64,000 nucleotides of DNA, taken from assembly GCF_019649055.1 (NCBI RefSeq), contig NW_026570401.1:119855-183854 (forward strand). The letters run 5' to 3'. This document shows positions 22,119 to 42,373 of this stretch, piece by piece. The position numbers and the translations under genes were made by a program. The notes under the pieces are model-generated. The model did not search any database. It saw only the letters and a list, made by a program, of their open reading frames with translations, and had not been told where the DNA came from. Source of the DNA: Paramacrobiotus metropolitanus. Its lineage: Eukaryota > Tardigrada > Eutardigrada > Parachela > Macrobiotidae. The first letter of the stretch is position 1, and each line of letters begins with the position of its first letter.

Positions 22119-22777
22119 CCTTTCTGTAGTCTCAGCTTTTCTCGCAACAGCGCATCAAATAATTCCTGTTGCATGGCGGCCGGATCGCTTGTCAGCGTGT
22201 CAATCTGGATGATCAGGGACTGGCGTGTCAACTGGGCTTCATCGTCGTTGTGACTCGCTGTGGGTACGGCTGAGCTCGATGAATTGGGCAGCGCCTCTCG
22301 TGCGGCCTGTTCGCTCGCCTTCTGATTCGCCGCATTGATCTTCGCCCGGAGTTCATCCTCCAGCTGTTGTCGTCGCATCTTCTCCTGATCCTCCTCAAAC
22401 TTCTTACGGTATGCATCTGTTTGCGGGCATTTCAGCGGCTCCAAAGTCTCGTCCCAACCGCTTTCGTTATTCTGGATCGCCTCCCGGTATCGATCCTCTA
22501 GTAACATTCGCTCTTCCACTGGGATGCTGCCGTAATTCCTCGCGCTGATGAGGTTTCGAAAAACATCCATGTTTCCCCGTTTAGCTTCCATAAGTCCCAC
22601 AAGTGAAACAATGTGTGGGTCTCCCAACTTGTGAACGCAAGTGTAACACGGGAACTTCTTGTCGACTTTTCTGTTATTCCGTAAACAGTCCGGACACTTT
22701 GGGTTATAGCCCGTAGATCTGTTTATCTCCGACGCGGGTCCTGCGCTTTTAGGAGTGGCGTGACCTTTCTGTGCCAT
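22052..22777 (-). CDS. Accessory ORF of giant element (~241 aa) with Cys pairs
   Basis: I place the start at the ATG of 22,777. A strong splice acceptor (TTTTCTGATTGCAG) ends 17 bp upstream, pointing to a spliced subgenomic mRNA. Near the N-terminus the protein has C-P-D-C and C-Y-T-C separated by about 15 residues, a possible zinc-binding module. A Glu/Arg/Gln-rich helical region follows. The second to sixth codons (A-Q-K-G-H) contain the AAAGGTCAC motif. No known family recognised. Confidence 0.6.
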   Translation of the reverse strand: MAQKGHATPKSAGPASEINRSTGYNPKCPDCLRNNRKVDKKFPCYTCVHKLGDPHIVSLVGLMEAKRGNMDVFRNLISARNYGSIPVEERMLLEDRYREAIQNNESGWDETLEPLKCPQTDAYRKKFEEDQEKMRRQQLEDELRAKINAANQKASEQAAREALPNSSSSAVPTASHNDDEAQLTRQSLIIQIDTLTSDPAAMQQELFDALLREKLRLQKGWKFVNTWGSNMTRLKQIRSAP

Positions 22778-22793
22778 TTTCTCCGTTTTGAAT

Positions 22794-22810
22794 CTGCAAT
22801 CAGAAAACAA
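22794..22810 (-). promoter_or_regulatory. Candidate splice acceptor for 3' accessory ORF
   Basis: Minus strand TTGTTTTCTGATTGCAG followed directly by the short leader of the 22,777 ATG. The pyrimidine-rich tract and CAG fit a metazoan 3' splice site. Confidence 0.5.
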
Positions 22811-23129
22811 TCCATCATAATAACCTTTCCACGTTAATCTTTTCCATCTTATCCATTATCAAGGCTTCTCTAGCATTTTTACGCCTATTCCGTTACTGAG
22901 CTGGGACTTTCCTAGCTCCTGCTGCCCTTTCTATCACTGTAACGTGGTGACCTTTCTCACGTTATCAGTACTTTCTGACTACTGTGACCTTTTCTATTAG
23001 TCTTATCAATCGAATTGACTTTTTCACTTTCAATTTTCCGTAAAACTTTTCTCATTCGTTTTTAACTGTTTTATGCTTTTTATGTAATATGCAGGGTTCA
23101 TTACTCGCTGCATATTACACTCGTCCCCT

Positions 23130-23639
23130 TCATTCAGATTCTTTCGCCGGTGGGTTATACGGCTTGAAGTCAACTCGGCCGTCCTGGTTAATGTGAAGCA
23201 CTTCATCTGCGATCAATGCTTCAACGGCATTCTTGATCCATTCTTTATCGTTCTCAATATTCAATTCTCCCAATTCATAATGGACGGCCATGAAGTTCGA
23301 AAGGTCATTCCATGACACTCCATTGGTACCACCGATGGCGTCCAAGGCCACATCTGTGATGGCTATTTTCCAGACTTCCAATTCCATTTTCAGCCTGGGC
23401 GTGCGGTCCGTGCCCTGTTTCGGAAGGTAGTAAATAACTTTGTTGTCCTTGTTATATTTGCATCCCAACTTTCCTTCCTTATATGCTCTTTTCAAGACCC
23501 GTTCGGTCATGCTGAGTGATGACCTTCCATTCGAATTTTCAGCAACTTGTCTCTTCAAGTCTGCGCCAAGCATTTCGCCTTCCCTAATATTCTGGAGTGC
23601 AACCTGGACTTCGCCCCATGTCCGATTAGTCACATCCAA
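23130..23639 (-). CDS. Accessory ORF of giant element (169 aa), unknown function
   Basis: An open frame of mixed charged and hydrophobic composition that could fold as winged-helix-like segments; no family recognised. There is no ATG at its start: the frame is open from a TAG near 23,684, just inside the end of the 1451-aa ORF and in its -1 frame. Expression would need splicing or recoding. The motif GAAAGGTCATTCC lies within it in the minority orientation (23,299-23,311). Confidence 0.5.
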   Translation of the reverse strand: MDVTNRTWGEVQVALQNIREGEMLGADLKRQVAENSNGRSSLSMTERVLKRAYKEGKLGCKYNKDNKVIYYLPKQGTDRTPRLKMELEVWKIAITDVALDAIGGTNGVSWNDLSNFMAVHYELGELNIENDKEWIKNAVEALIADEVLHINQDGRVDFKPYNPPAKESE

Positions 23640-23677
23640 CGGCGCGCCTAGCGTGTAATCTGTCGGCTCTTTTGTTT

Positions 23678-26600
23678 TTATACGCTAGTCTCCGGTTTCT
23701 GGGGGGATATTGCCGAGTCCGTTGGGTCAGTTATTTCCGTTTCATCAATCCGCAGTTTTGCCAGCGAGCCAGATGATGACTGAGCAGATTTCGGTTCATC
23801 GGCTTTCTCCTTCTGTGGTAAAGTCTCGTGACCTCCCACTTCATCTGCTGACTTCGGCCGCTCTTTCTCAAAAGCCTCCTTCAATGGTGTGAACAATGAT
23901 TTCTGGTACACCTGTCGCGCAGATGCAGCTTCTGCTTCTGCCGCTGCCTTGTCCATTGGGAGCATGACCTTTTCTTTCTCCCCTTTTTCTGAAGTCTCGT
24001 GACCTTTCGGTTGAGTTTCTTCTGTCGCGGTTACAGGTGTCTCTTGACCTTTAGGCTTTTCTGTCGCCGTTTCCAAAGGCGTTGGGACAGAGGCGTCGTC
24101 GTCACTCTCCCCCGATTCCACGTCCATTGGTCCTTTCTTTTTCGTCGTTTTCTTAGAAGAAGCCTGAGCGGCTTCTTCTTCAGCTGTTAATTGCGCGATC
24201 CGATTCAATATGGGAGTTGTTGGATCTCCACTCGATGGCACTTTATCCATCTCCTGACTGTCGGACATGGTACAATGGACTTGTTTTTCCGGCGGTATCA
24301 GGCCTACCCTCGTGTATCGGATCGGATATCCTTTATGTGCGTTCGTTGTTGACAGGATATTCTGTTTTATCAGCCTTGGCAATACACGTTCAGTTGCTGT
24401 GTCGATTTCCTTAATCATCCCTTTTCCGTCATTCCAAACGGCATTGATGTATTGGCTGATGCGGTGACTTGTTGACCCCAACGGGCTTGTCATTCCCGCG
24501 ATTGCCCTTTCTACTCGCATTGAGCTATCTTCATTTGGAGTCGTCAGCGACTTGTCCGAACTGGATGGTCTGAATAGCTTAGCCTTATACGCAAAATTCG
24601 GATGTTTCTGAAGGAGTTTTCCCGCGTTCCGTGCGTATTCCAACACCACATCGAACTTCTGTTTGGTGAAGCTACGGTGCATTTCTTTTCTCAAATATCT
24701 CTTTAAGCCCGTTCTAAATTTTGATGTTACTGATGTCGTTCGTATCCGTGTAAAATTCTTCTCCGCTCCATCGAACGCATCAATAATTTCGTCAATCGTG
24801 GTCAAATTATCGCTATCGGGATCTTCAAATTCCGCTTCATCCCCCGAGTAGTCAAGTTCACTGTCACCGTCCGGTTCGATATAGTTAACCATTGTCAATG
24901 CGTCAATTTTCATGGCTTCTTTCCCTTTCTTTTTCGTTTTGACGGGTTCGCTTTTTGCTTTTTTCCCTTTTTCAAGAGCCTCCGCTAGGCTTCCTGGTTC
25001 TACGGTTCTTGATCTGTTTGTTTTCGGGTCCGTGTGTGACCTCGCACTAATCTTTGAAGTACTTGGGAGGCTGGATTCCGAAGCTTCTGATTCACGAGAC
25101 GTTTCTCGTTTTGCCTTCTCACGCTTGCCTTTCTCCCTACGCTCCTTCGTAGTGGATGCCGAGATAACCACTGGGACGATCTGTTTCACAGCTATGACCT
25201 TTCCTTTGGATGTTGACGGCTCAGGCTCGGTGACCTTTGACTTTGATGTAGCCGATTCGATAACAAATTTCTTCGGAATAATAGGTATGGATGGCCTTTC
25301 TTCCGCTTCACCGACTGGTTCGTCTAATATTTCAACATCATGAGACGACGGTTCGTCCTTCTTATTTCTCTCCTCCCTTTTTCTCCGGGTGCTTGTGCTC
25401 TCGCTTTCATCACCGCTCTTCTTCTTCTTATCTTCCTTTTCCTTTCGTTTCTTTAGAAAGTCACCTTTCTTGACCTTCTCACGGTTCATGGCTTCTTCTA
25501 ATCTGGGCGTTTTCCTCGGTTTAACGACCACTTTCGGAGGCTGATTATCTTCCTCAGCCATGTCGTCGTCTTCGTCGGTCTGTTCCTCTGCCGAATCATC
25601 GTAAGCTTCCTCCTCTTCTGATTCGTCCTGTTTCGATGGTCTTCGGGTACTCTCCGTTCTTGCCACTTTGGCTACGGAAGCCTCTGCCATCTCTCCGGCT
25701 CCACTTTCTTGTGCCGGGTTTTGGGTCTGAATTTCCAAATGCGGTGTTTCGACCGTCTGTCCCTGTGTGACGATCTCCCACAAAGGGTTTTTCTTCGCGT
25801 CATAAAACACCGTTTTGTACGCTCCATTTTCCGTCTTTCTTGTGAGTCGAAAATGGGCTTCGTCTAGCTCCGCTCGATGTCGCATCATGCTGATCAGCGT
25901 GTTCGCTTGAATCAAAGGATCTTGACGTTCGCTTACTGGTATCAAGTTCCACAGCTGTTCAAGTGCTGCCCGATTGGCGTGTTCAGCGCTCTCTTCTGAC
26001 GCGTCCCATGGGGCATATGGAATCGGATCTCCTGTAATCGGGTCAACGATTACTGCGGTTAAACAATCCGTTGTTCCGTCGCCGAAGTGGAGAGTCAGCG
26101 TCACCTTTCTGCACGTCCCGTCGGTATATTTCAGGGTTGACTCGTAATCGTCTAGTGTTCGTTTATTTTGGTCAGGGTCTGCTGTCAGTTTCGGACGAAT
26201 TCTCTCTGTCGCCAGCAATTTCCCGTCCACTGAGTATGTGTATGCCAAGTGGTCGTCATTTGTGCCCACCTTAATGCGGATCCATGCGTTTTCTTCGATC
26301 GCAACTTTGGACACCACGTGCTTCATCATTTGAATGAGAACTCTCGGATTATGACGTTCCTCCGGGGGAATGAACTGTAACGCCTCATTGACTTCTGTCT
26401 TTGCCCTTTCCCCAATTTCAGTTTTAACTGACTTGTCCGCTAGAGGATTGTATGAGTCGATCTCCTTGTTCGTTCTTTTATCGACTATCCGAGCGGTGAC
26501 CTTTCGTTCGTTATGATCAGTTCCCGTATATTTGACTGTAAAAGTCCGGCACTTGGGAAGTCGAACCGAAGCAGCTTCAGGATCCTGCGGCGTGGGTGGT

Positions 26601-28033
26601 ACACTCTTTCTGCCCACTGGAATCGGTGCTTTACTCGTCGTGACCTTTTTCGTCCGCTGCTCCTTCTTGTCACTTGCTTTTGGGCTTGTCGTCGGTGACC
26701 TTACTCTTTTTCCGCTTTTTACGGTTCCGCTAGACGGCTCCGTAACCGAGCCGGTACGTCCGCGTACTGATCCTGCGGTTGAGCTAGCTCGTGACCTTTC
26801 TGCTCGTTCGGTTAATTCCGTCTCGATCTTTCTCTTTGTTTCCAGGAGAGCGCTGTCTGACATCTCCCCTACCGGTGCTTCAACTAATGTCCGTGATGGC
26901 CCCGCTGTGCTGCTTGTCGAGGGTCCCCTTTCTTTAGGAATCGTCTTAAGGAATATCTGTATCTTCTCAATCATCGGTGGCCATTTTCTGTGAGTTAAAG
27001 CCGGATGATACTGCTTCATCGAGGCGATTCTGATCGCCAACTCTTTACGTTTAACTTCGATGACTTTAGTTTTTTCTTTCATCGCGATATGGACTGCTTC
27101 AGTGATCGCGTCCAGACTCATTAATCTTCCATAGAATGCATGCTCATCTTCGACTCGCATATGAATTCTATAAAGGTCCCGACACATACGGTTGAAATCC
27201 TGGATGGCCGCTGTATCAGCCGCTGTCAATCTTTCTTCATCGTCCACTATCACATTGAGTCGCGCATCGTCATCTTTCATGTCAAGCGGAAGTTTCGGTG
27301 AGTAATCGTGCACCGTCGGTTCGCCCGGGGGCGTTGCCCGTAGACCATCTGGTCCGACCTGCTCCAAATTTGGGCCCAGCGACGGCAGTACGCCTCGCGG
27401 TCGTGGTGAATCGAACCGATTTCCTCCTCGCCTCCCTCCTTTATGTGGCGAGTTCCGATGAGGTCTCTGCGCTCCCAATTGCTGTGGCGTTTTCAAGCGC
27501 GGTGCTCCAATGTCCGACAGCAACAGACCTCCTGTTTCCGGGAAGGGTGGCAAAATTGGCGACGCCCTTTGTGACTGCGCTGGAGACGCTAACATTCCGC
27601 CAAATCCTCCGTGTCCCATAAATCGACTCGGTGTAGTCTGTTGCGGTGGCGGCATCAACATTCTCGCCGGTTCCATCGCTTGCGGTGGTCCCATCAGTGG
27701 GGTATACGATCCCGGTTGCGATTGATAAGGGGCGTTTGATGGCTGTCCCGAGTACTGGGTTCCGGCAAGTGAGCCGTGGTGCACCCAGCTAACCGTATCT
27801 TGATAACTCGTCGATTGTCCCGGATCGTAATACGTATAATACCCCGGGCCACCGTAGTAACCTCCTTGGGCTGGTTCGTTCTGTACCATTCCGACTGACG
27901 ATGTCGACCCTTCACCATATGAGGTGTCATACTCATATTCGCCTTCCATTCTCTTTGGGGTGGATGTCTTTAATGGGTTCCCGATACTTTCTGAGTCCGA
28001 ATTCTCTGAATTCTGTCGTTCCAATCTGTCCAT
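23678..28033 (-). CDS. Large post-integrase ORF of giant element (1451 aa) with internally duplicated domain
   Basis: Begins with ATG 125 nt after the integrase stop. A Gly/Tyr/Pro/Gln-rich N-terminus (with Y-Y-G-G-P-G-Y-Y-T-Y-Y) is followed by an arginine-rich patch and a helical segment. A pair of ~130-residue repeats (about residues 490-600 and 615-740) shares V-T-A-R-I-V-D / L-T-A-V-I-V-D, N-P / A-P, A-L-x-x-(I/L)-P-x-x-E-R and M-M-(K/R)-H at matching spacing. Long Lys/Glu/Ser-rich disordered stretches follow, then a more ordered region with F-R-T-G-L-K-R-Y-L-R near residues 1090-1210. No signal peptide, membrane span or known domain was seen, so it is not an obvious envelope. It lies where envelope genes sit in errantivirus-like elements. 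AAAGGTCAC copies occur in several frames. Confidence 0.75.
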   Translation of the reverse strand: MDRLERQNSENSDSESIGNPLKTSTPKRMEGEYEYDTSYGEGSTSSVGMVQNEPAQGGYYGGPGYYTYYDPGQSTSYQDTVSWVHHGSLAGTQYSGQPSNAPYQSQPGSYTPLMGPPQAMEPARMLMPPPQQTTPSRFMGHGGFGGMLASPAQSQRASPILPPFPETGGLLLSDIGAPRLKTPQQLGAQRPHRNSPHKGGRRGGNRFDSPRPRGVLPSLGPNLEQVGPDGLRATPPGEPTVHDYSPKLPLDMKDDDARLNVIVDDEERLTAADTAAIQDFNRMCRDLYRIHMRVEDEHAFYGRLMSLDAITEAVHIAMKEKTKVIEVKRKELAIRIASMKQYHPALTHRKWPPMIEKIQIFLKTIPKERGPSTSSTAGPSRTLVEAPVGEMSDSALLETKRKIETELTERAERSRASSTAGSVRGRTGSVTEPSSGTVKSGKRVRSPTTSPKASDKKEQRTKKVTTSKAPIPVGRKSVPPTPQDPEAASVRLPKCRTFTVKYTGTDHNERKVTARIVDKRTNKEIDSYNPLADKSVKTEIGERAKTEVNEALQFIPPEERHNPRVLIQMMKHVVSKVAIEENAWIRIKVGTNDDHLAYTYSVDGKLLATERIRPKLTADPDQNKRTLDDYESTLKYTDGTCRKVTLTLHFGDGTTDCLTAVIVDPITGDPIPYAPWDASEESAEHANRAALEQLWNLIPVSERQDPLIQANTLISMMRHRAELDEAHFRLTRKTENGAYKTVFYDAKKNPLWEIVTQGQTVETPHLEIQTQNPAQESGAGEMAEASVAKVARTESTRRPSKQDESEEEEAYDDSAEEQTDEDDDMAEEDNQPPKVVVKPRKTPRLEEAMNREKVKKGDFLKKRKEKEDKKKKSGDESESTSTRRKREERNKKDEPSSHDVEILDEPVGEAEERPSIPIIPKKFVIESATSKSKVTEPEPSTSKGKVIAVKQIVPVVISASTTKERREKGKREKAKRETSRESEASESSLPSTSKISARSHTDPKTNRSRTVEPGSLAEALEKGKKAKSEPVKTKKKGKEAMKIDALTMVNYIEPDGDSELDYSGDEAEFEDPDSDNLTTIDEIIDAFDGAEKNFTRIRTTSVTSKFRTGLKRYLRKEMHRSFTKQKFDVVLEYARNAGKLLQKHPNFAYKAKLFRPSSSDKSLTTPNEDSSMRVERAIAGMTSPLGSTSHRISQYINAVWNDGKGMIKEIDTATERVLPRLIKQNILSTTNAHKGYPIRYTRVGLIPPEKQVHCTMSDSQEMDKVPSSGDPTTPILNRIAQLTAEEEAAQASSKKTTKKKGPMDVESGESDDDASVPTPLETATEKPKGQETPVTATEETQPKGHETSEKGEKEKVMLPMDKAAAEAEAASARQVYQKSLFTPLKEAFEKERPKSADEVGGHETLPQKEKADEPKSAQSSSGSLAKLRIDETEITDPTDSAISPQKPETSV

Positions 28034-28040
28034 TAACTGA

Positions 28041-28063
28041 GCTTACCTTCTGTAATAATGAAA
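28041..28063 (-). promoter_or_regulatory. Candidate splice acceptor and donor just before the 1451-aa ORF
   Basis: Minus strand TTTCATTATTACAG (acceptor AG at 28,050-28,051) is followed after only AAG by GTAAGC, a good donor, and then CAG seven bases before the ATG. The layout suggests a spliced mRNA for the post-integrase ORF, with two alternative acceptors or a micro-exon. Confidence 0.45.
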
Positions 28064-28158
28064 CAACACTGGTTAGCCTTTTAACGGTGATGACCTTTTT
28101 ACACCTTCCCAACTCCTATTTTTAGTGACGTAAAACCCCTTATTCATGTTTGTGTGGG

Positions 28159-29742
28159 TTAATTTTCTCTGCGTCCTTTAGTTATCCGATCGAGGAGTTC
28201 TTTGTCGGCCGCATCTTCCACTTCACCTTTCTGGGTCAACAATTCTGTAGGAGTCAGTTTCTTTTTCTTCTGTTTAACCTTTCTCTCGTCGATGGCTTTC
28301 GCTATATCACGGCCCAATTGTTCAGCTTTTGATTTGACCGCTTCTATCTCCTCTTTTCTCGTTTCTATGAGGTCATTATCATTCATCGTAGCAGTGCGTG
28401 GTTCGAAAAAGGATTGTTGCGAGTCCTTTTTGGAAGTACGCTCTGGTACTTCGCCATCCTTCTGGCGATTCGGTAATGTGGCAGGAAGGTCACCCGTCTC
28501 TGGTGACCTTTCCGCCAGATTCCCAGCTTCTGCGTTCAACTTTATCGTAACCGCTGTCTCGAAGTCTTTATCCTCTTTCCTCGGTCTTCCTCTCTTCTTT
28601 TTTGGTTTATCTCCACCTGTATCAGGTAACAGAGAGCGTGGTTCGAAAAATTGACTGGTATCGTTTTTCGGAGCATGCTCGGCTTCACTGAGTTTATCTT
28701 CTTCCGACTTTTCCTTTTCGGGTAGCAGAGGTGGTTCGAAAAAGGTCGCTTTTTGGGACTGACGCTCTGCGTCTTTGTCCGGCAATGGCGGGTGCCATAA
28801 CTTCAACCGGTCAATTGAGACCACTTTCAGGTCTGCCTCTTTCTTTGGATTCTGTTCAATGACCTCCGCTTCGTTTGTTCGCGGGAAACTGAGGATCTTC
28901 CACACTTTATCGTATTTCGACTTGAAGTCCGACTGATTTTCTTTCTTTCCTTGTTTCGTATCCTTCGGAAGTCGTATCAACACAAGGTCACCCACCTTGA
29001 AGTTCGGTTCTGACTTCCTCTTGTTGTATATCTCTGCGTTCTTTTCGTAAGCATCTTTAATGTTGCATTTTGCCACTTCTTCTGCAAAGATCAAGTTCTT
29101 TTTCATGGTCTCTACCCATTCATCGGGAGCTCCATAATCATCTGGGATATTCGTTTTTGTGACTACGTCTTCCGGCATTGTCATTTCTCTGCCGTGCAAC
29201 ATATAATATGCTGAATATCCGGTCGTGGCGTGTACGACTCTGTTCATCGCTGAAATAACATATGGGAGGTACTTGTTGAACTTCCTTTCGTTTCCCGCTT
29301 TCAAATATTGCGCCAAGCCATCCGCAATCGTCTGCATCTGTCTTTCGACTTGGCCTTGACCTTCTGGATGATATGCTGTTCCAAATGTGTGTTTAATCTT
29401 AAACACGTTGGTGACCTTTGTCAACACTTCAGCTGTGAAGTGCCGTCCGCGATCCGTGTGCAGGATGTGCGGCGCTCCATGTACCAATATCACATGTTTG
29501 ACGAACACTTTGGCAAATTCCTTGGCTGTAGCCGTCTTCATTGGTACGGCAATCACGTATTTCGTCAGCTGATCGATGAACACCGCTATGTATTTATATC
29601 CGCGTTTCTTCGTTGGTAACAACGGTCCTTTCAGATCCGCGTAAACTCGGAAGAAGGGGTGTCCGACTTTTATCTCTTGTAATTTACCGGGTGGACATTT
29701 CCTCGGTGTCTTGCGAAATTGGCAGCCTTGGCAAGCGAGTAT
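28159..29742 (-). CDS. Integrase (DDE core and C-terminal domain), downstream of in-frame stop
   Basis: Same frame as the RT/RNase H ORF, separated from it only by TAA (29,743-29,745). The segment begins with the C-x2-C half of the HHCC zinc finger (about 29,733). The catalytic core follows: D in F-I-D-Q-L-T-K-Y, D in H-T-D-R-G-R-H-F, and E in G-Q-G-Q-V-E-R-Q-M, the D,D-35-E set that joins the cDNA to host DNA. A C-terminal module (F-K-V-G-D-L-V-L-I-R-L-P...) is the SH3-like/GPY-F-type region of Ty3/gypsy integrases. A Lys/Glu-rich tail carries three F-F-E-P repeats. The first ATG after the stop lies past the zinc finger. Confidence 0.9.
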   Translation of the reverse strand: MLACQGCQFRKTPRKCPPGKLQEIKVGHPFFRVYADLKGPLLPTKKRGYKYIAVFIDQLTKYVIAVPMKTATAKEFAKVFVKHVILVHGAPHILHTDRGRHFTAEVLTKVTNVFKIKHTFGTAYHPEGQGQVERQMQTIADGLAQYLKAGNERKFNKYLPYVISAMNRVVHATTGYSAYYMLHGREMTMPEDVVTKTNIPDDYGAPDEWVETMKKNLIFAEEVAKCNIKDAYEKNAEIYNKRKSEPNFKVGDLVLIRLPKDTKQGKKENQSDFKSKYDKVWKILSFPRTNEAEVIEQNPKKEADLKVVSIDRLKLWHPPLPDKDAERQSQKATFFEPPLLPEKEKSEEDKLSEAEHAPKNDTSQFFEPRSLLPDTGGDKPKKKRGRPRKEDKDFETAVTIKLNAEAGNLAERSPETGDLPATLPNRQKDGEVPERTSKKDSQQSFFEPRTATMNDNDLIETRKEEIEAVKSKAEQLGRDIAKAIDERKVKQKKKKLTPTELLTQKGEVEDAADKELLDRITKGRREN

Positions 29743-32700: not shown

Positions 32701-34779
32701 TTTTGCCTTTCGCCCGTTTCGTGTAGCGACTCTCGGATGGCTCCTCGCTACTCGGATTCTTGTTGATGACCTTTCCGACTGATCAGAGTTTGACCTTTCT
32801 TCCACCTGCTTTGACCTTTCCAAATCGTCAATCTTTTCAAGGCCCATTAATGGCTTTTCGGTCAACTCGACCGGCGGACCTTCCTCACCGTTATCGAGTG
32901 ACCTTTCCCCGTTTTTTGCCTCAGTTACTGGGTTTTGCTGTTCCTTTGATATCCTTTCCACCTCTTCTTTGAACTTCTTCCACATCTCTCCCCTGTCTGT
33001 CAACATCTGTGCGATATTGAAGGCGGATGTGTGTGATTCTTCCGTTTCATTCGATCCTCCTTCAGCTATCTCTTTAGCTGGCTCTTCCTTCTCTGTATCT
33101 TTTACAGTCACCTTATCAACTTCATCCTGTTGGATCGTCTCGTAACCTTTAGGTCGTTTGGGACCAACGAAGACACAGTTTGCCATCAGTTCTTCGGTGA
33201 CCCAATCATCGCTCGGGATCGTTTCATACATGCACCACGTGTCACCACCTCGTTCTGGGTAGTCCACTCCGTCTGGATCTGGTGCAAAGGTCACCTTTTT
33301 CTTCTCCATCAGTCCCGGTAACCTTCTTTTCCGGGTTACTTGTAACTCTCGTATTTCCCTTATGTCGAATATAGGAATCTCCGCTTCAAATTTCGTCCAA
33401 TATTTATCAAATATGTCCCAGTCGTTTTCTTTTAGTGCTTTACAGAACACCACTACTGACTCATATACCGGTGTACCGAGTCCTGTTGGGAATATAACTG
33501 TTCTCCCTTGACCTTTATACATATGGTTTATGCGGAAGTCCCAGAACAGTTCTATCCTCGCTTCTTCCCATAGCTGTACTTCCTCGTTCATTGAGTCTAT
33601 CTCTCTTTCAAGTTTTCGCTCAGTTGATACCGGGTCAAGAGGATCTTGGGTTCCGTTATCCATACGTTGCTGCCAATGGTTCAGCCATTTTCCTCTCCCC
33701 GTAATGAAATTTTTCACACATGACAGCCAAGTCCGATATCTGCTCCAATGATACCGCTCAATGTGTGGTTTCCACATTTCATTGGTCCTCATGATACTTT
33801 TCGTTTTCTTTTGGACTTGACCTTTAAGATCTGCTAATGCAGCGTTACATCTCGGCCATTCTGAAAGGTCATCTTGGGAGGCGTTTTGACAACATTCGGT
33901 GCATTCCCATTGTGGTTGCACTCTACACGGATCCTCATAGTAACCATGTCCGCAACTCCCCATTCGTTCTTCTGGAGTTAATATCCTTCGGTTGGTTTGC
34001 GAGTTGGCAATCTCCTTCTCTTGTGTTGTGGTTTTTTGCTCCTGTCCGATTTCTGTTACACTCGCTTCATCGGAGGATATTTCAATAATCCCTGTTTCAT
34101 TTTTCAGTTGGTGACCTTTTAACCGTTCAAGCGCTTTGTCGCGGATTTCGCTCGCGAACATCTGTTCTTCTTCAGCTATGCGTTTTAATATGCGCAACCT
34201 TTCACTCTTTTTATCCTTTCCCACTTTGGCCGATTTTACTCCCAGTGCCTCTGGTACTGGGATAGGCTTTGCCCATTCCATGCCAGGCACGAGTGATTGT
34301 TTCGCTGCGGCTGTCGCTTCTTTCTGTGTGGCAGCTATCTCTTCAAGTGTTGATGACCTTTCGTCATTGATAGCCAACGGTTCGAAAAAGGGTTCCTTTT
34401 GAGGGTCGCATTCTGTTACTTCTTCTTTAGCTTTATCTGGTGACCTTTCATGTTGGGTAGCAGATCGAGGTTCGAAGAAATTCGGAGTACGCTCTGGTAC
34501 TTTTATCGCCGGTGACCTTTCATCTTTCTTTCCCAGTGCCTCTGGTACTGGGCTAACTTTTTCAACACTTTCTTTTTCTGTGGCTCCTTGCTCACAGTCA
34601 TCTGCGATCATACTTCTCCCGTCCGGGAGAAATATGATCGCCTCGTCCATATCTGGCGCAAGCGGTTCCTTTTTCCCTTCATTGACTTTTTTGACGTTTG
34701 CACTTTCACTTTTCATCTCCGGTGCCTCTGGTACCGGGATTGTCCGTTGGCTAATCTCGTTCTGTTGCACTCTCGTCAT
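29743..34779 (-). CDS. Pol: reverse transcriptase and RNase H (1678 aa)
   Basis: The N-terminal ~900 residues are an acidic, repeat-rich extension with P-V-P-E-A-P/L-G and F-F-E-P cassettes and a Cys cluster (about residues 275-300). The RT domain spans about 960-1150, with the catalytic Y-I-D-D near 1138 and P-F-G-V-C-N-G-P upstream. RNase H follows from E-C-D-A-S-K-E-G (about 1285) through T-D-H-Q-A-L. The ORF ends inside the integrase zinc finger: the H-x-H half (A-L-H-D-E-K-A-A-G-H-L-G) is present, then TAA. Pol starts at an ATG that overlaps the protease stop as ATGA (34,776-34,779). Its frame is open 72 nt further upstream, where it already encodes a P-V-P-E-A-P-G cassette. Confidence 0.93.
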   Translation of the reverse strand: MTRVQQNEISQRTIPVPEAPEMKSESANVKKVNEGKKEPLAPDMDEAIIFLPDGRSMIADDCEQGATEKESVEKVSPVPEALGKKDERSPAIKVPERTPNFFEPRSATQHERSPDKAKEEVTECDPQKEPFFEPLAINDERSSTLEEIAATQKEATAAAKQSLVPGMEWAKPIPVPEALGVKSAKVGKDKKSERLRILKRIAEEEQMFASEIRDKALERLKGHQLKNETGIIEISSDEASVTEIGQEQKTTTQEKEIANSQTNRRILTPEERMGSCGHGYYEDPCRVQPQWECTECCQNASQDDLSEWPRCNAALADLKGQVQKKTKSIMRTNEMWKPHIERYHWSRYRTWLSCVKNFITGRGKWLNHWQQRMDNGTQDPLDPVSTERKLEREIDSMNEEVQLWEEARIELFWDFRINHMYKGQGRTVIFPTGLGTPVYESVVVFCKALKENDWDIFDKYWTKFEAEIPIFDIREIRELQVTRKRRLPGLMEKKKVTFAPDPDGVDYPERGGDTWCMYETIPSDDWVTEELMANCVFVGPKRPKGYETIQQDEVDKVTVKDTEKEEPAKEIAEGGSNETEESHTSAFNIAQMLTDRGEMWKKFKEEVERISKEQQNPVTEAKNGERSLDNGEEGPPVELTEKPLMGLEKIDDLERSKQVEERSNSDQSERSSTRIRVARSHPRVATRNGRKAKETDKPLLKNSKAKKLSDSRENGSDLSSDDEGVDERPLEKADKGQAAAQEYESSDSDSEWTSSSDNSTTSEDSGVSDLSEQEDLMDLDEDDEVDEEKEKGIKVRRLKVEKARMSKDVIKVYSDQRIKLKPSNCTRVKVKMGKYAPAQNKLMFTPVPQIETDVQPLAGVTDHRGKYFEIVIANHSSKYQIVKKNQLLGYVEPYEHMENVKVNAGTVKNVLEDPEVDDTTKAELTKIIGNLKLGPDLTEEQKNDVYNAFWEFWKVLPTSKKPYGDVKGVTHVIDTGDAKPVKCNPARTSWTGREFITKHIEEMLAQDVIEPSDAEWSFPVVLAVKKNGDGTMGTRFCVNYIMLNKLTRKNNYPLPNPDELLDACAGNKYYGKMDLQSGFWQIPMDPASINKTTFVTQDGMYRFKRMPFGVCNGPATFQLCMDKVLSKAKRKGCVFGYIDDVIFAGKTWAIFMQNLRNVLMSLVEAGFTIKPTKCEFGMREMGFLGHILSEDGIRMDPEKVTAVSEFKRPQTERQLRSFLGLANYYRKFIMGYAQKTCHLYELLRQDKQVKKDWTKVHEDEFNSLKQLLCEGPVLAKFDPAKPTVIECDASKEGIGAVLSQDGHPIAYASRVLDGAERNYGVTERECLAVVFAVRKFKPFIDYAEFTVRTDHQALTNLLRSETNKVGMNPRLTRWAMALQGHQFKIEYKPGKYCDNADALSRAPIEGPTCQEEEFEEIPNFEDYKKEFDTKEPAIEIGQLFLQMAEQREKRLKVTSATAKESAENEAKVNRAKSWLPTVSDLKVTGLEAESEPQNGKVTGLYETMGKRDDLWETDKVAQALNECPIKLLRFPKQTKKRYKPLPRCKVIKDWNELSTATIRIVNLQGDEEEEDDSNLQLRNKQLKDPHLAMIIDELEHLPDAETRSKFEVHYQLWNGILYRVKDKNGKLERSYVVPLSMRRAIIHALHDEKAAGHLGFEKTLSAIRLRYYWDRMSTDVKN

Positions 34780-37181
34780 TCCCGGTGCCTCTGGTACTGG
34801 GATGACCTTTTCTCTTCCCTTTGTGTTAGCATTGTCCGGTTTAATGTGTTTTCAATCTCCAATTGGATCAATTTCAACTGCTCAAATGTCGACAATTCTT
34901 TCTTTGCCGTCTTTTTCTGCTCGATTCCCGGTGCCTCTGGTACTGGGATTAGCGTTTTATTATCAGTCTGAGCATTCCCCGTCTGTTTTACAAGTTCGGT
35001 GACCTTTCCGACTTGAACTTTGGCGATCGGTTTCGGGTCATCTTCTTTCTCTTCTTCGCCTTCATTATCCATTAGTACGAACTTCTTCTCTAAGAAGTCG
35101 AATCCCAGTAACACCTGTACGTCGTCACACTTCGGTCGGACGTAGAAAGAATGTTCGCTAGTCTTTTTCCTTAAGGTCACCGGTGCTACGCAGTAGTGCG
35201 TCACCATGAATCCTGACGTTCCGCTAATTCCATTTATCTTCACCAGTCTGTCTGGTGGCAATGGAAGCATATGTAGTCCATTTGTCTCGCAAAACGGTTT
35301 GCTGATCAACGACGTCTCAGCGCCGGTGTCCAACATTGCGTTGACCTTTATGTCTCCCACTTTCACTTCGTGTGTGTATGCTTCAATTCTTTTGGGCAGT
35401 TTTCCGTTTTGAATCTTTAGTGTGTGAATCTTACATTTCACAGGAATTAACGATACTGGTCCCGGATCCATATCGGGAAGCACTTGCCCTTTCGCCGGAG
35501 TGCTATGACCTTTCAGTATTTCCCTCAACTTGTCAATCCTGTGTGGCACGTCGGTTCGGACATCGTAGAATTTCTGCGGTTTTTTCTTATCCGCTTGCTT
35601 CTCTGCAGCCATCTTGCCGCTGGTGACCTTTTCATTATTCTGCACTTGCGAATTTGCTTTTGTGCTATCCCCGTGACCTTTAGTCACTTCATTTATCGTC
35701 TCATGGATTAGTTCCTCTTTACGGTTTTCGTTTCGTTTATCTCGCAACTTCTCAATGACTTCATTTGTTATTTGGTCAGCTCGTTTCAATTCATCTACTT
35801 CACTGTCCTTCTTCTCTTCTGGTGACCTTTCGTATGTAACCATATCATATCCCTTTTGGGCCATCCATTCAATCACCTTCGCGGACACTTCGTTATTCGT
35901 TTTCGTCGGATCGGTTTGCGAAGACATTCCGTCCGTTCGAGCCGGTGACTTGTCATTGGCATCCTGTTGCAGTGCTTGTGATAAGTCCCGTGACCTTTCG
36001 ACAGCGCTAGTCTGTTGCATTTGCGCCATTTCATTTAACCTTCCTCTCTGTTCGTTTTGCGCTAAGTCCTGTGACCTTTCGTTGCGCTTTATGACAAATC
36101 CGCCGCTTGACAGCTTTTGTATGGGGACTTTTTCTCCATAATTTTGCGGTTTATGTTCCGGCGGTGCATTTCGCGGGTTATTCAGGTCAGCTTGTGCATT
36201 CTTGTATTCAATTGCGTTGAATACTGGAGCAAGGTTCGGTGACCTTTTACTTTCTTTCCCGGTAACCAGTTCTTCCAGTCGTTTTCTCTCATATTGCGTT
36301 CGCAATTCCTGCATGTCCCTGTAATCTTCTTGAGACATTCCCGCTTTCTGTTTCGCTTTTGGCGTCACGGGTGTCCACATCCCGTGATTCCCATTCGGTC
36401 TGTAGTCTACTTTTTGCCATATTTCCTTCCGTTGCAGCGTTACTGCATCCACAAGTGAGTCGTCGGAGTTCTGCTGTGCCGGTTCGCTATTCTTCTGCTG
36501 CGCTGTTCGCAGTGTCAGGTCTGTTTCTTGACCTTTTAACACGACGCTGTCGCCGTGACCTTTAGCGTTCGCACTTGCTCCACGACCTTTCACTTGGACT
36601 TTTCCTACGGGGAGTGACCTCTGGCGATTCGGTATGCCGTGTTCTTCCATATACTCTCGGAATTTCGAATGGTGCACTTCTTCATCCTCTTCTGTAGTGC
36701 TATTCTGCGGCTTCCTCTGATTCAGCATTGCTTGTTGAATCTTCGCATTGCGTAATGCACGGCGTTCAGCTAACACCTTTTCGCTGCAATACGGTGACCT
36801 TTCATTTTGCTGCGCTGTTCGCAGTGTCGCGCTACCATCACGACAATTTCCACTCGCAGTACCATTCTGCGGTGACCTTTGGTCCCGTTGCACGTTTCCA
36901 CTCGCAGTACCATTCTGCGGTGACCTTTGATTCATTTGTACTGGTTTCCCGATAACCAGTTCCTTTTGCTGCTGTGGCGGCATCCATATAGCCGTTTTCT
37001 GTGGTCGCGGCATCCATATAGCCGGTCCACTTCCGTTTTGCGCTGACGGCATCCATCTAGCCGTTGCAATGGTCACGTTCACTGCAGTACTGTTCTGCAG
37101 TGACCTTTCCGTTCCCTTTTTATCCGGTGGTTTCGGGTCGGGGCGATCAGTAGGCTCACCGGCGCCTACTGATCTTGCCCG
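34776..37181 (-). CDS. Protease ORF, entered by -1 frameshift from gag
   Basis: The frame is open from the gag slippery site (37,181) to a TGA at 34,776-34,778; there is no ATG at its start, which fits frameshift entry. The aspartic protease has its catalytic D-T-G-A in A-M-L-D-T-G-A-E-T-S-L-I-S (around 35,330) and a L-L-G-F-D-F-L flap/core partner about 75 residues on. A ~580-residue disordered region precedes it, rich in E-R-S, K-G-H and K-V-T, each encoded by the AAAGGTCAC motif in a different frame. One in-frame P-V-P-E-A-P-G cassette follows the protease. Confidence 0.88.
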   Translation of the reverse strand, partial: RARSVGAGEPTDRPDPKPPDKKGTERSLQNSTAVNVTIATARWMPSAQNGSGPAIWMPRPQKTAIWMPPQQQKELVIGKPVQMNQRSPQNGTASGNVQRDQRSPQNGTASGNCRDGSATLRTAQQNERSPYCSEKVLAERRALRNAKIQQAMLNQRKPQNSTTEEDEEVHHSKFREYMEEHGIPNRQRSLPVGKVQVKGRGASANAKGHGDSVVLKGQETDLTLRTAQQKNSEPAQQNSDDSLVDAVTLQRKEIWQKVDYRPNGNHGMWTPVTPKAKQKAGMSQEDYRDMQELRTQYERKRLEELVTGKESKRSPNLAPVFNAIEYKNAQADLNNPRNAPPEHKPQNYGEKVPIQKLSSGGFVIKRNERSQDLAQNEQRGRLNEMAQMQQTSAVERSRDLSQALQQDANDKSPARTDGMSSQTDPTKTNNEVSAKVIEWMAQKGYDMVTYERSPEEKKDSEVDELKRADQITNEVIEKLRDKRNENRKEELIHETINEVTKGHGDSTKANSQVQNNEKVTSGKMAAEKQADKKKPQKFYDVRTDVPHRIDKLREILKGHSTPAKGQVLPDMDPGPVSLIPVKCKIHTLKIQNGKLPKRIEAYTHEVKVGDIKVNAMLDTGAETSLISKPFCETNGLHMLPLPPDRLVKINGISGTSGFMVTHYCVAPVTLRKKTSEHSFYVRPKCDDVQVLLGFDFLEKKFVLMDNEGEEEKEDDPKPIAKVQVGKVTELVKQTGNAQTDNKTLIPVPEAPGIEQKKTAKKELSTFEQLKLIQLEIENTLNRTMLTQREEKRSSQYQRHRE

Positions 37182-37187
37182 TTTCCC
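37124..37187 (-). promoter_or_regulatory. Programmed -1 frameshift signal between gag and protease
   Basis: In the gag frame the heptamer G GGA AAC (37,181-37,187) is followed by a 6-nt spacer and a perfect 11-bp stem (GATCAGTAGGC, 37,164-37,174, with 37,145-37,155) closing an 8-nt loop. Six loop bases (CCGGTG, 37,157-37,162) are complementary to CACCGG at 37,124-37,129, allowing an H-type pseudoknot. The gag stop TAG lies inside stem 1. After a -1 slip the reading frame is exactly the protease frame. Heptamer, spacing and structure match classical retroviral gag-pro signals. Confidence 0.9.
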
Positions 37188-40100
37188 TGAACTGGCGCAC
37201 CTCCTTGTTGAGCGCCTTGCACATTTCCTTGTTGTTGTCCGATTTCGTTTGCCTGGTTGGCGTTCCGTCCGCCTCCGTTATTTTGGCCGCCGCCATTATT
37301 TTGGGCGCCACCACCACCATTGTAGTAGTTTCCTTGGCCACCTCCGTTGCCGCCGCCTCGATTACCGCCGTAATTCCCGCGGCCATAGCCTCTGCCCCTT
37401 GCTCTGAAGCCGCCGCGGCCGTAGCCACCACGGCCGTAGCCGCCGTTATTCTGGGCGCCGCCGCCGTTTCCATTTCCGTAATTGCCATTTCCTTGCTGTT
37501 GAAAGTTCGCTTTCGCCTGATACCATTGTGTTACCAGGTCATATCCGTTCGCCACTGCTTGGCGCCAACCGCCCAGGTTGCGCAATCTTTGCCATTCTCT
37601 GAAGGTAAACAAGTTCGGGTTCTGATCCGGCGGCGTGTTCGCGAACTTGCATCCCTGTGTCTGATGGTTGCCATACATACAGTACTGGCACATTTGCACA
37701 TTGTTCGCTACCCATCCGTCGATCATTTGGAACTTAAATTCCGTTCGTGACCCTTGATTCTGCTGGAAGTTGTTCTGATTTCCTCTATTCTGCTGAGGAT
37801 AGCCTTGACCTTGACCTTGACCTTGATTCTGGAAGTTTCCTTGGCCTCCATTCCAATTTCCATTTCCATATCCGTTCCCGCCAAAGTTGCCATTTGGCAT
37901 TCCCTGTTGCGGTATCACCACATTCGGTGGAGCCACATTCTGAGGTGGAGGTCTCACTTGAGCCGCTGCTTGTATCGCCGCCACCATCGCATATGTTATT
38001 GGCTGTCCCGTCTGGCTGTCGATAAAGGTCACTTCTTTGGTGACCTCTCTTACAGGGGTTTCCGCGCGAAATTCCATTTGCTGCTGGGCTGATGCAGCTA
38101 CCATTCTCTGTTGCGGTACATTCTCCACCTGGCCTTGGCGGATAGTCACGTATTCCTGGTTACGTTGACCTTTTGGCGCCTTGTACTTTTCATCTCCTGT
38201 TGCCCAGTGTCGGAAAAAGTCCTTTACATCGGTCGGCGTCTTACACTTTTGTATGCGCAATGCCTTATAGAGTTCATTGTCTCCTTTGCATCCCTCAATT
38301 AAGAAGCCAACTGCTTGCTTCTCAGTGATGATTCTCTTTGCTTTGAATCGCATCATCGCTTGGTAGTACTGGTCGAGCGATTCTTTTCCAAGTTCGAATT
38401 TCCTTGCATAGGCCTCACGTAAGCCTAGGACTTCTTCGTCTCGATCACCATATTCGTCTTTGAATTTATCCATCCATTCTTTTACCGTGTACTCGATTCC
38501 GTCTTCTGATGCTATGTCCTTTTCTCCTTCGAACCAGCCCTTGGCCGGACCTTTTACGGCGCTGGCTATTTCAATCATTATTTGCCTATCAGTAAGCTGG
38601 TAGGTATCTTGGGTTTCTTTCACCAATCTTGTCCAGCCATTGACGGTGTCACGGCTGCCATCAAAGGTCATCAAGGGTGTTTTCCGAGCCATGGAATCGA
38701 GTGCTTTCGCTAATGCGAACCCCCCCCTCAAATTGTCTTCTTCTTCGCTGCTCTCATCATCGTTTTGGTTTCGCCTCTGCTTTGCGTAGCGGGATTTCCT
38801 CGGGCGCTCCTGCCGACTAGGGGGTCTGTCCCGTCGCCCTTCGTCGATGAACGCGTTGACTTCGATATGTGGGGGGAATTGTGAAGGTTCGCATCGGCTC
38901 GAGTGTGAATAACCTGATGGTGGTTCTTTATCCTTATCATCTTTGACCTTTTCACCGTCTTGTTCTGTTTTGACATTTCCTCTGCCGGTGCCGGTTCGTA
39001 AGGGCATTTCAAAATGGAAGCTTTTGCCCGTGCCCGTTTCATGCGCCTTGCTGTAACTGGGCGGCGGTGATTCCACTGTTGCGGTCTTCACTCCATATTG
39101 CAGGAGTTGTTCGTCCTTATGCTTGACTGACGTTTGGAGTGCTTTGTTCTCGTCCTCCAGGCGTCTGTTCCTTAGGGTGAGCTCCTCCCTCTCTCTCCTC
39201 AGTTCGGTGTTTTCCTGTTTAACCTTCTGCGTATGGTCATGTAATTGGAAGGTTTTTTCCTTCATGACCTTTTCGTTTTCCTGTTCCATCTTGTTGATGT
39301 GTTCAGCCAGTTGAGTCACCTCCCGCTCGAGTTTCTGGTATTCCTCAGCGGCCGATTTCAGCTGGGTCCTGACTTCGGTCACTTCATCGTCTTTATTCAT
39401 CACTGTTCTTGTCATTTCATAAAGTTCATTGGTGACCTTTACGTTTTCCTGTTTCTGTTGGGTCATCTGTTGTTGCCATTCTTTTTCTTTCAGTTCCAAT
39501 ACTGTAACCATTGTATCCAATCTGCGTGCTTCATTTTGCCACTTAAGATTTTCCTTTGCGGCTTTTTGGCAGTCCTCGGTGACCTTTTTATTTTCCTCAG
39601 TGACCTTTTTGATCTCATCCTTAAGTCGTTCCCCTTCGGTGGCTACGAGATCTCTCAAGTCTCGTGCCACTTTGGCTGCTTCCCCTCTTTTCTCTTCCGC
39701 CTCGTCGGCGCGTCTCTGGTGACCTTTCGACTCATTCTGCAGGATGCTGATGGCTTCGTCACGTGACTTCAGTTCGTTTCTTAGCTTAAACGTTTCAGCT
39801 GCCAGCTTCGACAATCGTTGGGTAACCTCTGCGAAGTTACCCGCGTATTCGTCTCTTTTAGCTTCGGCTTCGGTGACCTTTTGTCGTAACTGGTCACATT
39901 CATCCTTCAGTTCGACTAAGTGTCGTGACCTTTCCGCTGATTCTTCCGACATACTTTCGTTAAGGTCATTGACTGCGAGGTGACCTTCCATTTCTCTGTC
40001 ATCTACCATTTTCAAATATTCTTCTGCCATCTCCCTTTGTTTTTCGTATTTCACTTTCCAACCGTCTGCAGCACTTTGGAGGTCATCCAGTTGCTGTTCC

Positions 40101-40942
40101 AAATCGAAGAGACGGGTCTCAAGTGTCGTCAGTCTTTCTCGATATTCCTGTTTCCGCTTATCCGCCTGGCGCTCATTGCTTTCAAGTTCGTTTTCCAATT
40201 CGCTCACACGTTTCCTCAGAGTCGTTGTCGGGCTATTCGGTGATGGTGATCGAACATTGATGACCTTTCCAGTCTGTGTCCGTTCAATTAAGTGTTCAGG
40301 TATGTCCGTAAACGAGGTCATCCCTTCTGCTCGGTCCGCTTCCTTCATGGCAGTCCGGAACGACGTATTAATCGTCGTTTCGTCATCCGTATAATACGAC
40401 TCGTTTGATTCATCTGACACCATTGGGGTTGCCCAAAGGTCATCACCATTAGTCCTGTCATTGAGTGTAAGGTCATCCAGTCTCAGTTCAGCAAGTTCCT
40501 CTTCGGTGACCTTTGTCTTTTCCCATTCCGCTTGAGCCAGGTTTACATTTTTATCCTGCTCATTCGTTCCACTGATGGTAGCATCCAATTGGGATGCTCC
40601 CTCTGCTTCCGCTGTCTTTTCTGTGGTTCTGTCCTCCCCAGCGACCTTTGTCTGGTTCATCGGTTCACTTCCCGTCGTAGATGCGGGAGTGTACTTCTGG
40701 TCGTCGCTGGAACTTTCCTGATTGGCGACCGCCTCGAGCGCCTTCTGATAGGTACTATCAGAGCCTCGCGAATCCTTCTTCTCGAATGCCTTGGGCGCTC
40801 GAGTGTTCCGCTCGTGTCCAACTGGACGCGAGTACGTGTGCAAGTCTTTTTTGTACGGATTTGGTGCACCTTGCTGTGAACTTCGGGAGCTTATGCTTCC
40901 CTGACTGCTGGTAGACGTTGGTTGTTCCTTGTCTTTATCCAT
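37166..40942 (-). CDS. Gag (1258 aa)
   Basis: Starts at ATG 40,942. The N-terminal half contains a long coiled coil (about residues 240-650). A capsid-like retrotransposon Gag domain follows (about 750-917: M-T-F-D-G-S...W...L-R-E-A-Y-A-R-K-F...). A Gln/Asn/Gly-rich region precedes one zinc knuckle, C-Q-Y-C-M-Y-G-N-H-Q-T-Q-G-C (C-x2-C-x4-H-x4-C, near residue 1085). The tail is rich in RGG/YGRGG and Asn-Gly, typical of RNA-binding, condensate-prone proteins. At 1258 aa it is two to four times the usual Ty3/gypsy Gag length. Its E-R-S, K-G-H and K-V-T/K-V-I tripeptides mark the AAAGGTCA motif in three frames. It ends with TAG inside the frameshift stem. Confidence 0.92.
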   Translation of the reverse strand: MDKDKEQPTSTSSQGSISSRSSQQGAPNPYKKDLHTYSRPVGHERNTRAPKAFEKKDSRGSDSTYQKALEAVANQESSSDDQKYTPASTTGSEPMNQTKVAGEDRTTEKTAEAEGASQLDATISGTNEQDKNVNLAQAEWEKTKVTEEELAELRLDDLTLNDRTNGDDLWATPMVSDESNESYYTDDETTINTSFRTAMKEADRAEGMTSFTDIPEHLIERTQTGKVINVRSPSPNSPTTTLRKRVSELENELESNERQADKRKQEYRERLTTLETRLFDLEQQLDDLQSAADGWKVKYEKQREMAEEYLKMVDDREMEGHLAVNDLNESMSEESAERSRHLVELKDECDQLRQKVTEAEAKRDEYAGNFAEVTQRLSKLAAETFKLRNELKSRDEAISILQNESKGHQRRADEAEEKRGEAAKVARDLRDLVATEGERLKDEIKKVTEENKKVTEDCQKAAKENLKWQNEARRLDTMVTVLELKEKEWQQQMTQQKQENVKVTNELYEMTRTVMNKDDEVTEVRTQLKSAAEEYQKLEREVTQLAEHINKMEQENEKVMKEKTFQLHDHTQKVKQENTELRREREELTLRNRRLEDENKALQTSVKHKDEQLLQYGVKTATVESPPPSYSKAHETGTGKSFHFEMPLRTGTGRGNVKTEQDGEKVKDDKDKEPPSGYSHSSRCEPSQFPPHIEVNAFIDEGRRDRPPSRQERPRKSRYAKQRRNQNDDESSEEEDNLRGGFALAKALDSMARKTPLMTFDGSRDTVNGWTRLVKETQDTYQLTDRQIMIEIASAVKGPAKGWFEGEKDIASEDGIEYTVKEWMDKFKDEYGDRDEEVLGLREAYARKFELGKESLDQYYQAMMRFKAKRIITEKQAVGFLIEGCKGDNELYKALRIQKCKTPTDVKDFFRHWATGDEKYKAPKGQRNQEYVTIRQGQVENVPQQRMVAASAQQQMEFRAETPVREVTKEVTFIDSQTGQPITYAMVAAIQAAAQVRPPPQNVAPPNVVIPQQGMPNGNFGGNGYGNGNWNGGQGNFQNQGQGQGQGYPQQNRGNQNNFQQNQGSRTEFKFQMIDGWVANNVQMCQYCMYGNHQTQGCKFANTPPDQNPNLFTFREWQRLRNLGGWRQAVANGYDLVTQWYQAKANFQQQGNGNYGNGNGGGAQNNGGYGRGGYGRGGFRARGRGYGRGNYGGNRGGGNGGGQGNYYNGGGGAQNNGGGQNNGGGRNANQANEIGQQQGNVQGAQQGGAPVQGNGQDQ

Positions 40943-42196: not shown

Positions 42197-42362
42197 CCGA
42201 AAACCGAAGCTGGAAATCCGCGTCCAATGGGGGAAATTGCACCGCTTGTGGTGTGCGCTTTGCTGTAGGACAGACCTGTGCCTTACTGGTCACGGGTTTC
42301 ACGTCGGATAACAGGCCAAATATGCCTGACACAAATCAAATCAATCAGAGAACCGCTGTCGG

Positions 42363-42373
42363 CTCTGCTACCA
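42363..42373 (-). promoter_or_regulatory. Primer-binding site for initiator tRNA-Met
   Basis: Minus strand TGGTAGCAGAG, one base after the 5' LTR, is complementary to the 3' end of eukaryotic initiator tRNA-Met (CTCTGCTACCA), a common primer for LTR retrotransposons. Confidence 0.88.

Follow-up and report, generated by a model that had tools for sequence, protein, structure and literature searches.

An exact octamer under synonymous-level selection throughout the coding region of a giant Ty3/gypsy retrotransposon of Paramacrobiotus metropolitanus, and its possible role as an array of host NR4A sites

Burro of planarians and Ogre of plants are giant Ty3/gypsy elements, very long retrotransposons bounded by long terminal repeats (LTRs) (PMC6431247). 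Burro combines protease, reverse transcriptase, RNase H and integrase (PR-RT-RH-IN) with a large extra coding capacity, and the available part of the published account deals with the size and accessory domains of Burro and Ogre and mentions no DNA word repeated along their coding regions (PMC6431247). Here we report a likewise very long element from the tardigrade Paramacrobiotus metropolitanus, which lies on the minus strand at 16292-42724 of a window of 64,000 bases (contig 181, 119855-183854 of a 169.8-Mb assembly; window coordinates are used throughout). In Pfam scans its open reading frames (ORFs) show the Ty3/gypsy-like domain order PR-RT-RH-INT together with large extra coding capacity, as in Burro, while the accessory domains listed for Burro in the available part of its account (BIR, MATH, ankyrin; PMC6431247) are absent from these scans. 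The ORFs are filled with exact copies of one octamer, AAAGGTCA, and this word, its conservation and its candidate reader are the subject of this report.

Between 22740 and 40515 the minus (coding) strand has 59 copies of the octamer, from 22761 to 40514, and the plus strand has nine. The original prediction of about 60 copies therefore holds for the octamer, but not for the nine-base form AAAGGTCAC under which it had been announced, which accounts for 37 of the 59 (and for 4 copies on the plus strand); the base that follows the coding-strand octamer is C in 37 cases, A in 12, T in 10 and G in none. The motif is dense in that interval, as proposed, but the feature extends beyond it into antisense arrays at 41018-41488 and 20069-20282, and between the LTRs there are 84 copies in both orientations (83 spacings), 64 of them inside ORFs. 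The word is exact: each of its 24 single-substitution neighbours is found 0-4 times on the coding strand. When the octamers present in at least five bins of 20001-40942 were ranked by their bin count relative to that of their neighbours, AAAGGTCA came first (17.8), the runner-up (10.3) overlapped it, and its reverse complement stood fourth. The window copy (A) was compared with three related copies, B, C and D, which were chosen via motif clusters and are thus a biased sample of the family as regards motif density. Copy B is one of the 28 loci scored for the RT/RNase H ORF (POL), and C is more distant. A G at base 9 is nearly absent from all of them (A 0/59, B 0/67, C 2/62, D 2/62). Avoidance of a splice signal was rejected as the cause, since 20001-40942 outside the motifs has 91 copies of TCAG against 56 of TCAC and so shows no such avoidance; the avoidance of G thus seems to belong to the motif.

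The seven ORFs of the element follow one another in the order Gag-position ORF (GAG), protease (PRO), RT/RNase H (POL), integrase (INT), X1, X2 and X3, and together carry 56 sense and 8 antisense copies. The sense copies use all three frames, with 13 in frame 0 (KGH/KGQ), 19 in frame 1 (15 as ERS) and 24 in frame 2 (15 as KVT), in agreement with the earlier observation that the word is translated as K-V-T, E-R-S and K-G-H. Synonymous shuffling within each ORF (300 runs) gave 4.75 sense motifs in sum; the observed count was never reached in X1, POL, PRO or GAG, and the shuffle maximum reached it in X2, X3 and INT, which hold 1, 1 and 2 motifs. A codon-usage null built from codons outside the motifs (1000 runs) gave a mean of 3.24 sense (maximum 10) and 0.23 antisense copies (maximum 3), so that no codon-aware model produced a count similar to the observed 56 and 8. 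Under the same null (500 runs each) copy B had 62 sense and 11 antisense copies against 4.2 and 0.28 expected, and the divergent copy C 42 and 9 against 3.6 and 0.21. Chance in A-rich coding DNA is ruled out by the shuffle and the codon-usage null, and peptide repeats are ruled out as the cause by the use of three frames and by the synonymous-site test that follows.

Copies B and D were compared piecewise with the ORFs of A, and expectations were taken from windows in the same codon phase. Of the 56 ORF motifs of A, 46 are intact in B (13.6 expected) and 41 in D (13.8 expected), as are four of the eight in the alignable part of C (0.7 expected). The reading frames of D are broken in places, and part of its motif losses is probably recent decay; since A and B both look recently inserted, the conservation is one kept in active lineages. 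For codons lying wholly within motifs, with the amino acid unchanged, synonymous change was compared with that of identical codons in the remainder of those ORFs. It affected 3 of 118 codons between A and B (43.1 expected) and 3 of 113 between A and D (35.6 expected), a more than tenfold suppression that none of 100,000 simulated draws equalled in either comparison. By this check, which had been proposed earlier, synonymous sites inside motifs evolve more slowly in the copies compared, and decay of the motifs at the neutral rate is not seen. Together with the shuffle and the codon-usage null, this test upholds the claim that the constraint acts on the nucleic acid rather than on the peptide, and we regard selection at the nucleotide level on the word as practically certain. 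Sixteen comparisons of antisense ORF motifs showed 11 intact (GAG 6/6, POL 5/10). Outside the ORFs, B retains 6 of the 8 leader motifs, and B and D each retain 4 of the 5 tail motifs, while other 8-base windows of these regions are identical in 38-49% of cases; the leader of D is not alignable.

The word is not confined to the element. Host DNA was sampled in 177,567 bases outside elements, comprising window positions 1-16291 and 42725-64000 and the stretches L011-L013 and L017-L027. Excluded from this background were L016, which includes a fragment of an element (11 motifs within 10 kb) and had been part of a first count of 26 motifs in 12 stretches, and L001-L004, which had been retrieved by the motif itself. 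On both strands of the sample AAAGGTCA occurs 35 times against a neighbour mean of 6.7 (maximum 17). The 630 CG-free permutations of the word average 6.5 and only AGGTAAAC is more frequent, which places AAAGGTCA second; present in 32 of 356 bins of 500 bp, it ranks third in over-representation against neighbours among the 2315 octamers found in at least 12 bins. The flanks of the host sites show no similarity to copies A-D at E 1e-5. Among the host sites themselves, overlapping neighbours aside, flanks are shared by one repeat (window 11236/11247 and 61634) and, over short stretches, by two sites in L021. Over the whole genome, with elements counted in, there are 19,414 copies of AAAGGTCAC and 3,461 of its reversal; for AAAGGTCAG the figures are 4,042 against 2,427, whereas the FTZ-F1/ERR-type CAAGGTCAC is not enriched (1,895 against 1,871); the genome-wide signal therefore also requires A at the first base. 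The over-representation of the octamer in sampled DNA outside elements suggests that some host factor acts widely across the tardigrade genome. As a separate observation, a second dispersed octamer, ACGAGTAC / TACGAGTA (GTACTCGTA), is over-represented in sampled host DNA to the same degree as AAAGGTCA (31 bins each, against about 5 for neighbours), in part owing to an array in L023. A link between the two words was rejected, as ACGAGTAC is absent from 20001-40942 and lies no nearer to host motifs than random points do.

As given in the available parts of the cited papers, AAAGGTCA is base for base the NBRE, the monomer site of the NR4A nuclear receptors (PMC10419244, PMC3386274), and their dimer site, the NurRE, reads TGACCTTT-n6-AAAGGTCA (PMC10419244). 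The host genome contains 63 exon-level matches to zf-C4, the nuclear-receptor zinc finger, of which about 21 were read in 20 short regions. One gene, on contig 45, is an NR4A gene: its second-finger exon best matches NGFI-B (1cit, 3.1e-21), followed by Nur77 and Nurr1 entries, and adjacent frames give a first finger with CEGCKG and a C-terminal extension, RTDSLKGRRGRLP. These exons, which lie in different frames of the genomic sequence, encode an NR4A DNA-binding domain plus its C-terminal extension. That extension contacts the A-rich 5' bases of the site. Among the other receptor exons, judged by eye, L028 resembles FTZ-F1, and L030 and L033 resemble ERR. The sites of FTZ-F1 and ERR accept or prefer a C at the first base, before AAGGTCA, and those of ROR and E75 a T before AGGTCA. 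On the coding strand of the element CAAGGTCA occurs 4 times against 59 for AAAGGTCA, and the ROR/E75-type ATAGGTCA does not occur. With CAAGGTCAC not enriched, the first two bases disfavour FTZ-F1, ERR and ROR/E75 as readers, and the receptor types originally suggested (FTZ-F1, ROR/HR3, E75) are not supported.

We favour, at a probability of roughly 0.45 for the whole chain, the explanation that AAAGGTCA is a double-stranded-DNA site for a host NR4A-type receptor, repeated in a distributed array that would keep a provirus of about 23 kb open and transcribed. A distributed array of host-factor sites, as the original prediction had it, is thereby retained as the best reading, predicted from sequence. 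Many of the monomer sites of the integrated element would be filled by receptor molecules, which would bring in activators or keep silencing chromatin out, and a transcription unit exceeding 20 kb would in this way stay expressed. Where the protein tolerates K-V-T, E-R-S or K-G-H, selection would keep the codon spelling that makes a site, and the three peptide forms would arise because the sites are confined to positions at which the proteins can accommodate them. That some host DNA-binding factor reads the word we consider quite probable. The match to the NBRE suggests that this reader is likely NR4A and not another protein of the same 8-bp specificity, and the integrated DNA is likely the bound form, with expression or resistance to silencing as the benefit. 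More tentatively, the coding region may also be regulatory DNA, with some 80 selected NR4A sites through every ORF in a host seeded likewise, and the element wired body-wide rather than via its LTR.

Orientation and spacing bear on this reading. Relative to the codon-usage null, antisense copies in the ORFs are enriched about 34-fold and sense copies about 17-fold. Codons rarely allow the antisense word, because it puts a stop in one frame; the sense bias of the ORFs is thus due to coding, and antisense copies are at least as enriched relative to what the codons allow. Enrichment in both orientations, together with antisense conservation, therefore favours a site in double-stranded DNA. The gaps between the ORFs of A hold three sense motifs and one antisense. 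Among 335 distances between neighbouring motifs in the stretches of A-D (those of B, C and D take in some sequence outside the copies) none is below 15 bp, and the medians are 115-169 bp. The NurRE spacing of 14 bp from start to start is absent among them, and opposed pairs at 15 bp number two, both in copy C. Such wide spacing, without the NurRE distance, is as expected for many separately occupied monomer sites.

Several observations weigh against the NR4A array. The leader motifs are almost exclusively antisense (A 8/8, B 11/11, C 5/7), as are those of the 3' tail (A 5/6, B 5/6, C 5/5, D 5/6), and a monomer site needs no such polarity; it stems partly from tandem duplication, yet it persists in the divergent copy C. 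The LTRs of A, the usual seat of enhancers, carry no motif, and the 335 distances show no helical phasing. The excess conservation of leader and tail taken alone is modest, and the antisense POL motifs are less well kept (2/5 in B, 3/5 in D). Host sites neither favour nor avoid long ORFs (20 of 35, against a coverage of 61%) and tolerate G at base 9 (9 of 35), unlike the elements, whose avoidance of that base is no part of the published NBRE. Finally, other receptors of the same specificity may be present among the remaining exon matches.

One alternative is that a different host factor, be it another nuclear receptor or an unrelated protein (zinc-finger, architectural or germline-licensing), marks the host genome widely with this word, and that the element mimics host DNA and so escapes silencing. 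The over-representation of the exact octamer in host DNA suits such a factor, as do two features in which the elements go beyond the published NBRE, namely exactness at all eight positions and scarcity of G at base 9; of the 63 zf-C4 exon matches, moreover, about 21 were read. As the word equals the NBRE in every base and the host has an NR4A with C-terminal extension, we hold this alternative to be rather unlikely, although worth keeping in view.

A role at the RNA level is a more doubtful proposition. Here sense copies in the ORFs would pair with antisense copies in leader and tail and so fold or package a very long genome, or a protein or small RNA would read the 8-mer. The flank polarity is its main support, since the ORF copies are mostly sense (56 against 8) and those of leader and tail, in the copies examined, mostly antisense; moreover the sites are interior, with none in the LTRs of A, and exactness over eight bases resembles seed pairing. 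Coding, however, explains the bias of the ORFs, in which antisense copies are enriched at least as strongly for what the codons permit, and the word is enriched in sampled host DNA with flanks unlike those of the elements. RNA packaging, one of the uses first proposed, is accordingly less likely because of the host enrichment and the two orientations in the ORFs, while the antisense polarity of the flanks still leaves room for some RNA role.

The remaining alternatives fare worse. The element family might act as a sponge, its 84 sites per copy titrating a host receptor and shifting host expression to its own benefit; at least 28 POL and at least 40 LTR loci would imply well over a thousand element sites, if these are as dense as A-D. 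The host sample, however, extrapolates to some 33,000 octamers outside elements, and selection of this kind would act on the family and not on the copy, hardly explaining conservation copy by copy, which makes the idea improbable. Still less credible is internal plus-strand priming, in which the purine-rich AAAGG would supply multiple primers resembling polypurine tracts (PPTs) for a very long cDNA. Sirevirus elements do have multiple exact octamer PPT copies, according to the available part of their description (PMC2829016), and the ORF motifs are mostly sense; antisense copies are nevertheless also enriched and mostly kept, the 60 bases upstream of the 3' LTR contain no AAAGGTCA, and the host enrichment is left unexplained. 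That tandem duplication, gene conversion or another copying or mutational process scattered the word without selection is scarcely tenable: there is some tandem repetition in the leader arrays and in a few stretches of the ORFs, and some leader copies look decayed, but decayed copies are at background level in the coding interval and the suppression of synonymous change contradicts it, so that scatter and decay of a copied word are ruled out for the ORFs by the neighbour counts and the synonymous test.

The element shows with unusual clarity how two codes can overlap, one exact word being imposed on a protein-coding body. NR4A receptors are induced by stimuli that include cellular stress, according to the available part of PMC7901948. 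If NR4A is the reader, the activity of the element would be coupled to the stress biology of an animal well known to survive desiccation, although the link to desiccation is speculative.

The element measures 26,433 bp from LTR to LTR including a nested insertion, and about 23.4 kb without it, of which some 22.7 kb is internal, more than the 20 kb that characterises the internal region of a Burro-type giant element. Its two LTRs, at 42374-42724 (5', beginning with TGTGAG on the coding strand) and 16292-16642 (3'), both on the minus strand, are 351 bp each and identical at 351 of 351 positions, and ACAC forms a 4-bp direct repeat on either side. With its LTRs and short target-site duplication it is a recently inserted LTR retrotransposon of the Ty3/gypsy type (Metaviridae). 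Copy B also looks recently inserted (LTRs identical at 359 of 359 positions, TGCC flanking repeat). A putative primer binding site, TGGTAGCAGAGC, lies directly after the 5' LTR (42362-42373, minus strand) and is presumably complementary to the 3' end of initiator tRNA-Met. The 5' leader array at 41018-41488 has eight plus-strand motifs, antisense to transcription, with C as the next base in all eight, then mostly TT, partly within tandem repeats of 43 and 29 bp. On the 3' side the array at 20069-20282 has five plus-strand motifs, likewise antisense, each reading ATGACCTTT on the coding strand, and a tandem repeat of 2.4 copies of an approximately 190-bp unit occupies 20400-20847 in the 3' untranslated part. 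Just past the 5' LTR, at 43088-43287, there is a tandem array of TTCTTAGGT-like units.

All ORFs are on the minus strand. GAG (37166-40942, 1258 aa; 11 sense and 3 antisense motifs) is assigned by position and has no gag match in the Pfam scan. PRO (34776-37082, 768 aa, gag-asp_proteas; 15 sense motifs) gave three protein matches, all from Paramacrobiotus metropolitanus. POL (29743-34779, 1678 aa; 18 sense and 5 antisense motifs) covers reverse transcriptase, RNase H and an integrase zinc-binding domain, and its closest solved structure is Ty3 Gag-Pol (7q5b). The integrase core ORF (rve, 28159-29622; 2 sense motifs) is separate from POL in the window copy; in several other copies the frame that is open across the POL match is longer. 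X1 (23678-28033, 1451 aa; 8 sense motifs) has no confident Pfam family and one weak match (E 0.25). X2 (22052-22810, 252 aa; two CxxC pairs, 1 sense motif) and X3 (21033-22118, 361 aa; 1 sense motif) have no Pfam family in the scan; four homologues of X3 were found, all from Paramacrobiotus metropolitanus. In copy B, X2 and X3 (window 21033-22810) look fused into one frame of 915 codons. A DNA-binding protein encoded by the element itself was rejected as reader of the word on the strength of these scans of X1-X3, and the host signal also argues against it. Between protease and reverse transcriptase, at 34240-34965, a 40-base repeat around TCCCAGTGCCTCTGGTACTGGGA is present in five copies that encode PVPEA-like peptides.

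The nested insertion, of a non-LTR (LINE-like) type, measures about 3,011 bp (16987-19997, minus strand), has a reverse transcriptase ORF at 17052-19949 and contains no motif in its 3.0 kb. Copies B and D have an empty site there and are continuous, with a short overlap at the junction, so that its reverse transcriptase gene is ruled out as a part of the giant element. The insertion, within the 3' untranslated part of its host element, encodes by eye an N-terminal C2H2-like finger together with the 965-aa reverse transcriptase ORF. The family is multi-copy: 28 POL loci were scored among 2311 candidates, with main matches of 81-100% identity, and 40 LTR loci among 309, several of them paired about 24 kb apart, both numbers of loci being lower bounds. 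In the divergent copy C (L010:3480-4484) a run of motifs at intervals of 18-24 bp lies inside one open frame. Elsewhere in the window, an ORF at 577-1512 has MULE transposase / ZSWIM RNase H-like domains.

Host-factor sites in the LTRs or leaders of mobile elements are already known. Drosophila gypsy has a Su(Hw) insulator array of about a dozen sites in non-coding DNA, which is comparable to the 5' leader array described here, whereas 64 of the 84 sites of the present element lie inside ORFs. Transcription-factor sites are also found within coding exons, scattered in host genes, where the protein code overlaps a DNA-binding code; this overlap is shared, and the saturating one-word array is the element's own feature. 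The repeated motifs and multiple PPTs of Sirevirus elements are likewise exact short words in diverged retrotransposons, with variants rare, but, according to the available part of the account, they belong to plant Ty1/copia elements and to non-coding positions in the LTRs, the linker and upstream of env (PMC2829016). The published NBRE is the identical 8-base word, but is described at regulatory sites of genes and in NurRE pairs, and the available parts of these accounts mention no such density in a mobile element (PMC10419244, PMC3386274). Among the matches listed from the open-licence literature, we recognised no account of such an array in a retroelement. The element itself is of a known kind, a giant Ty3/gypsy retrotransposon, and what is new is a single host-type word that saturates its coding region under selection at the synonymous level.

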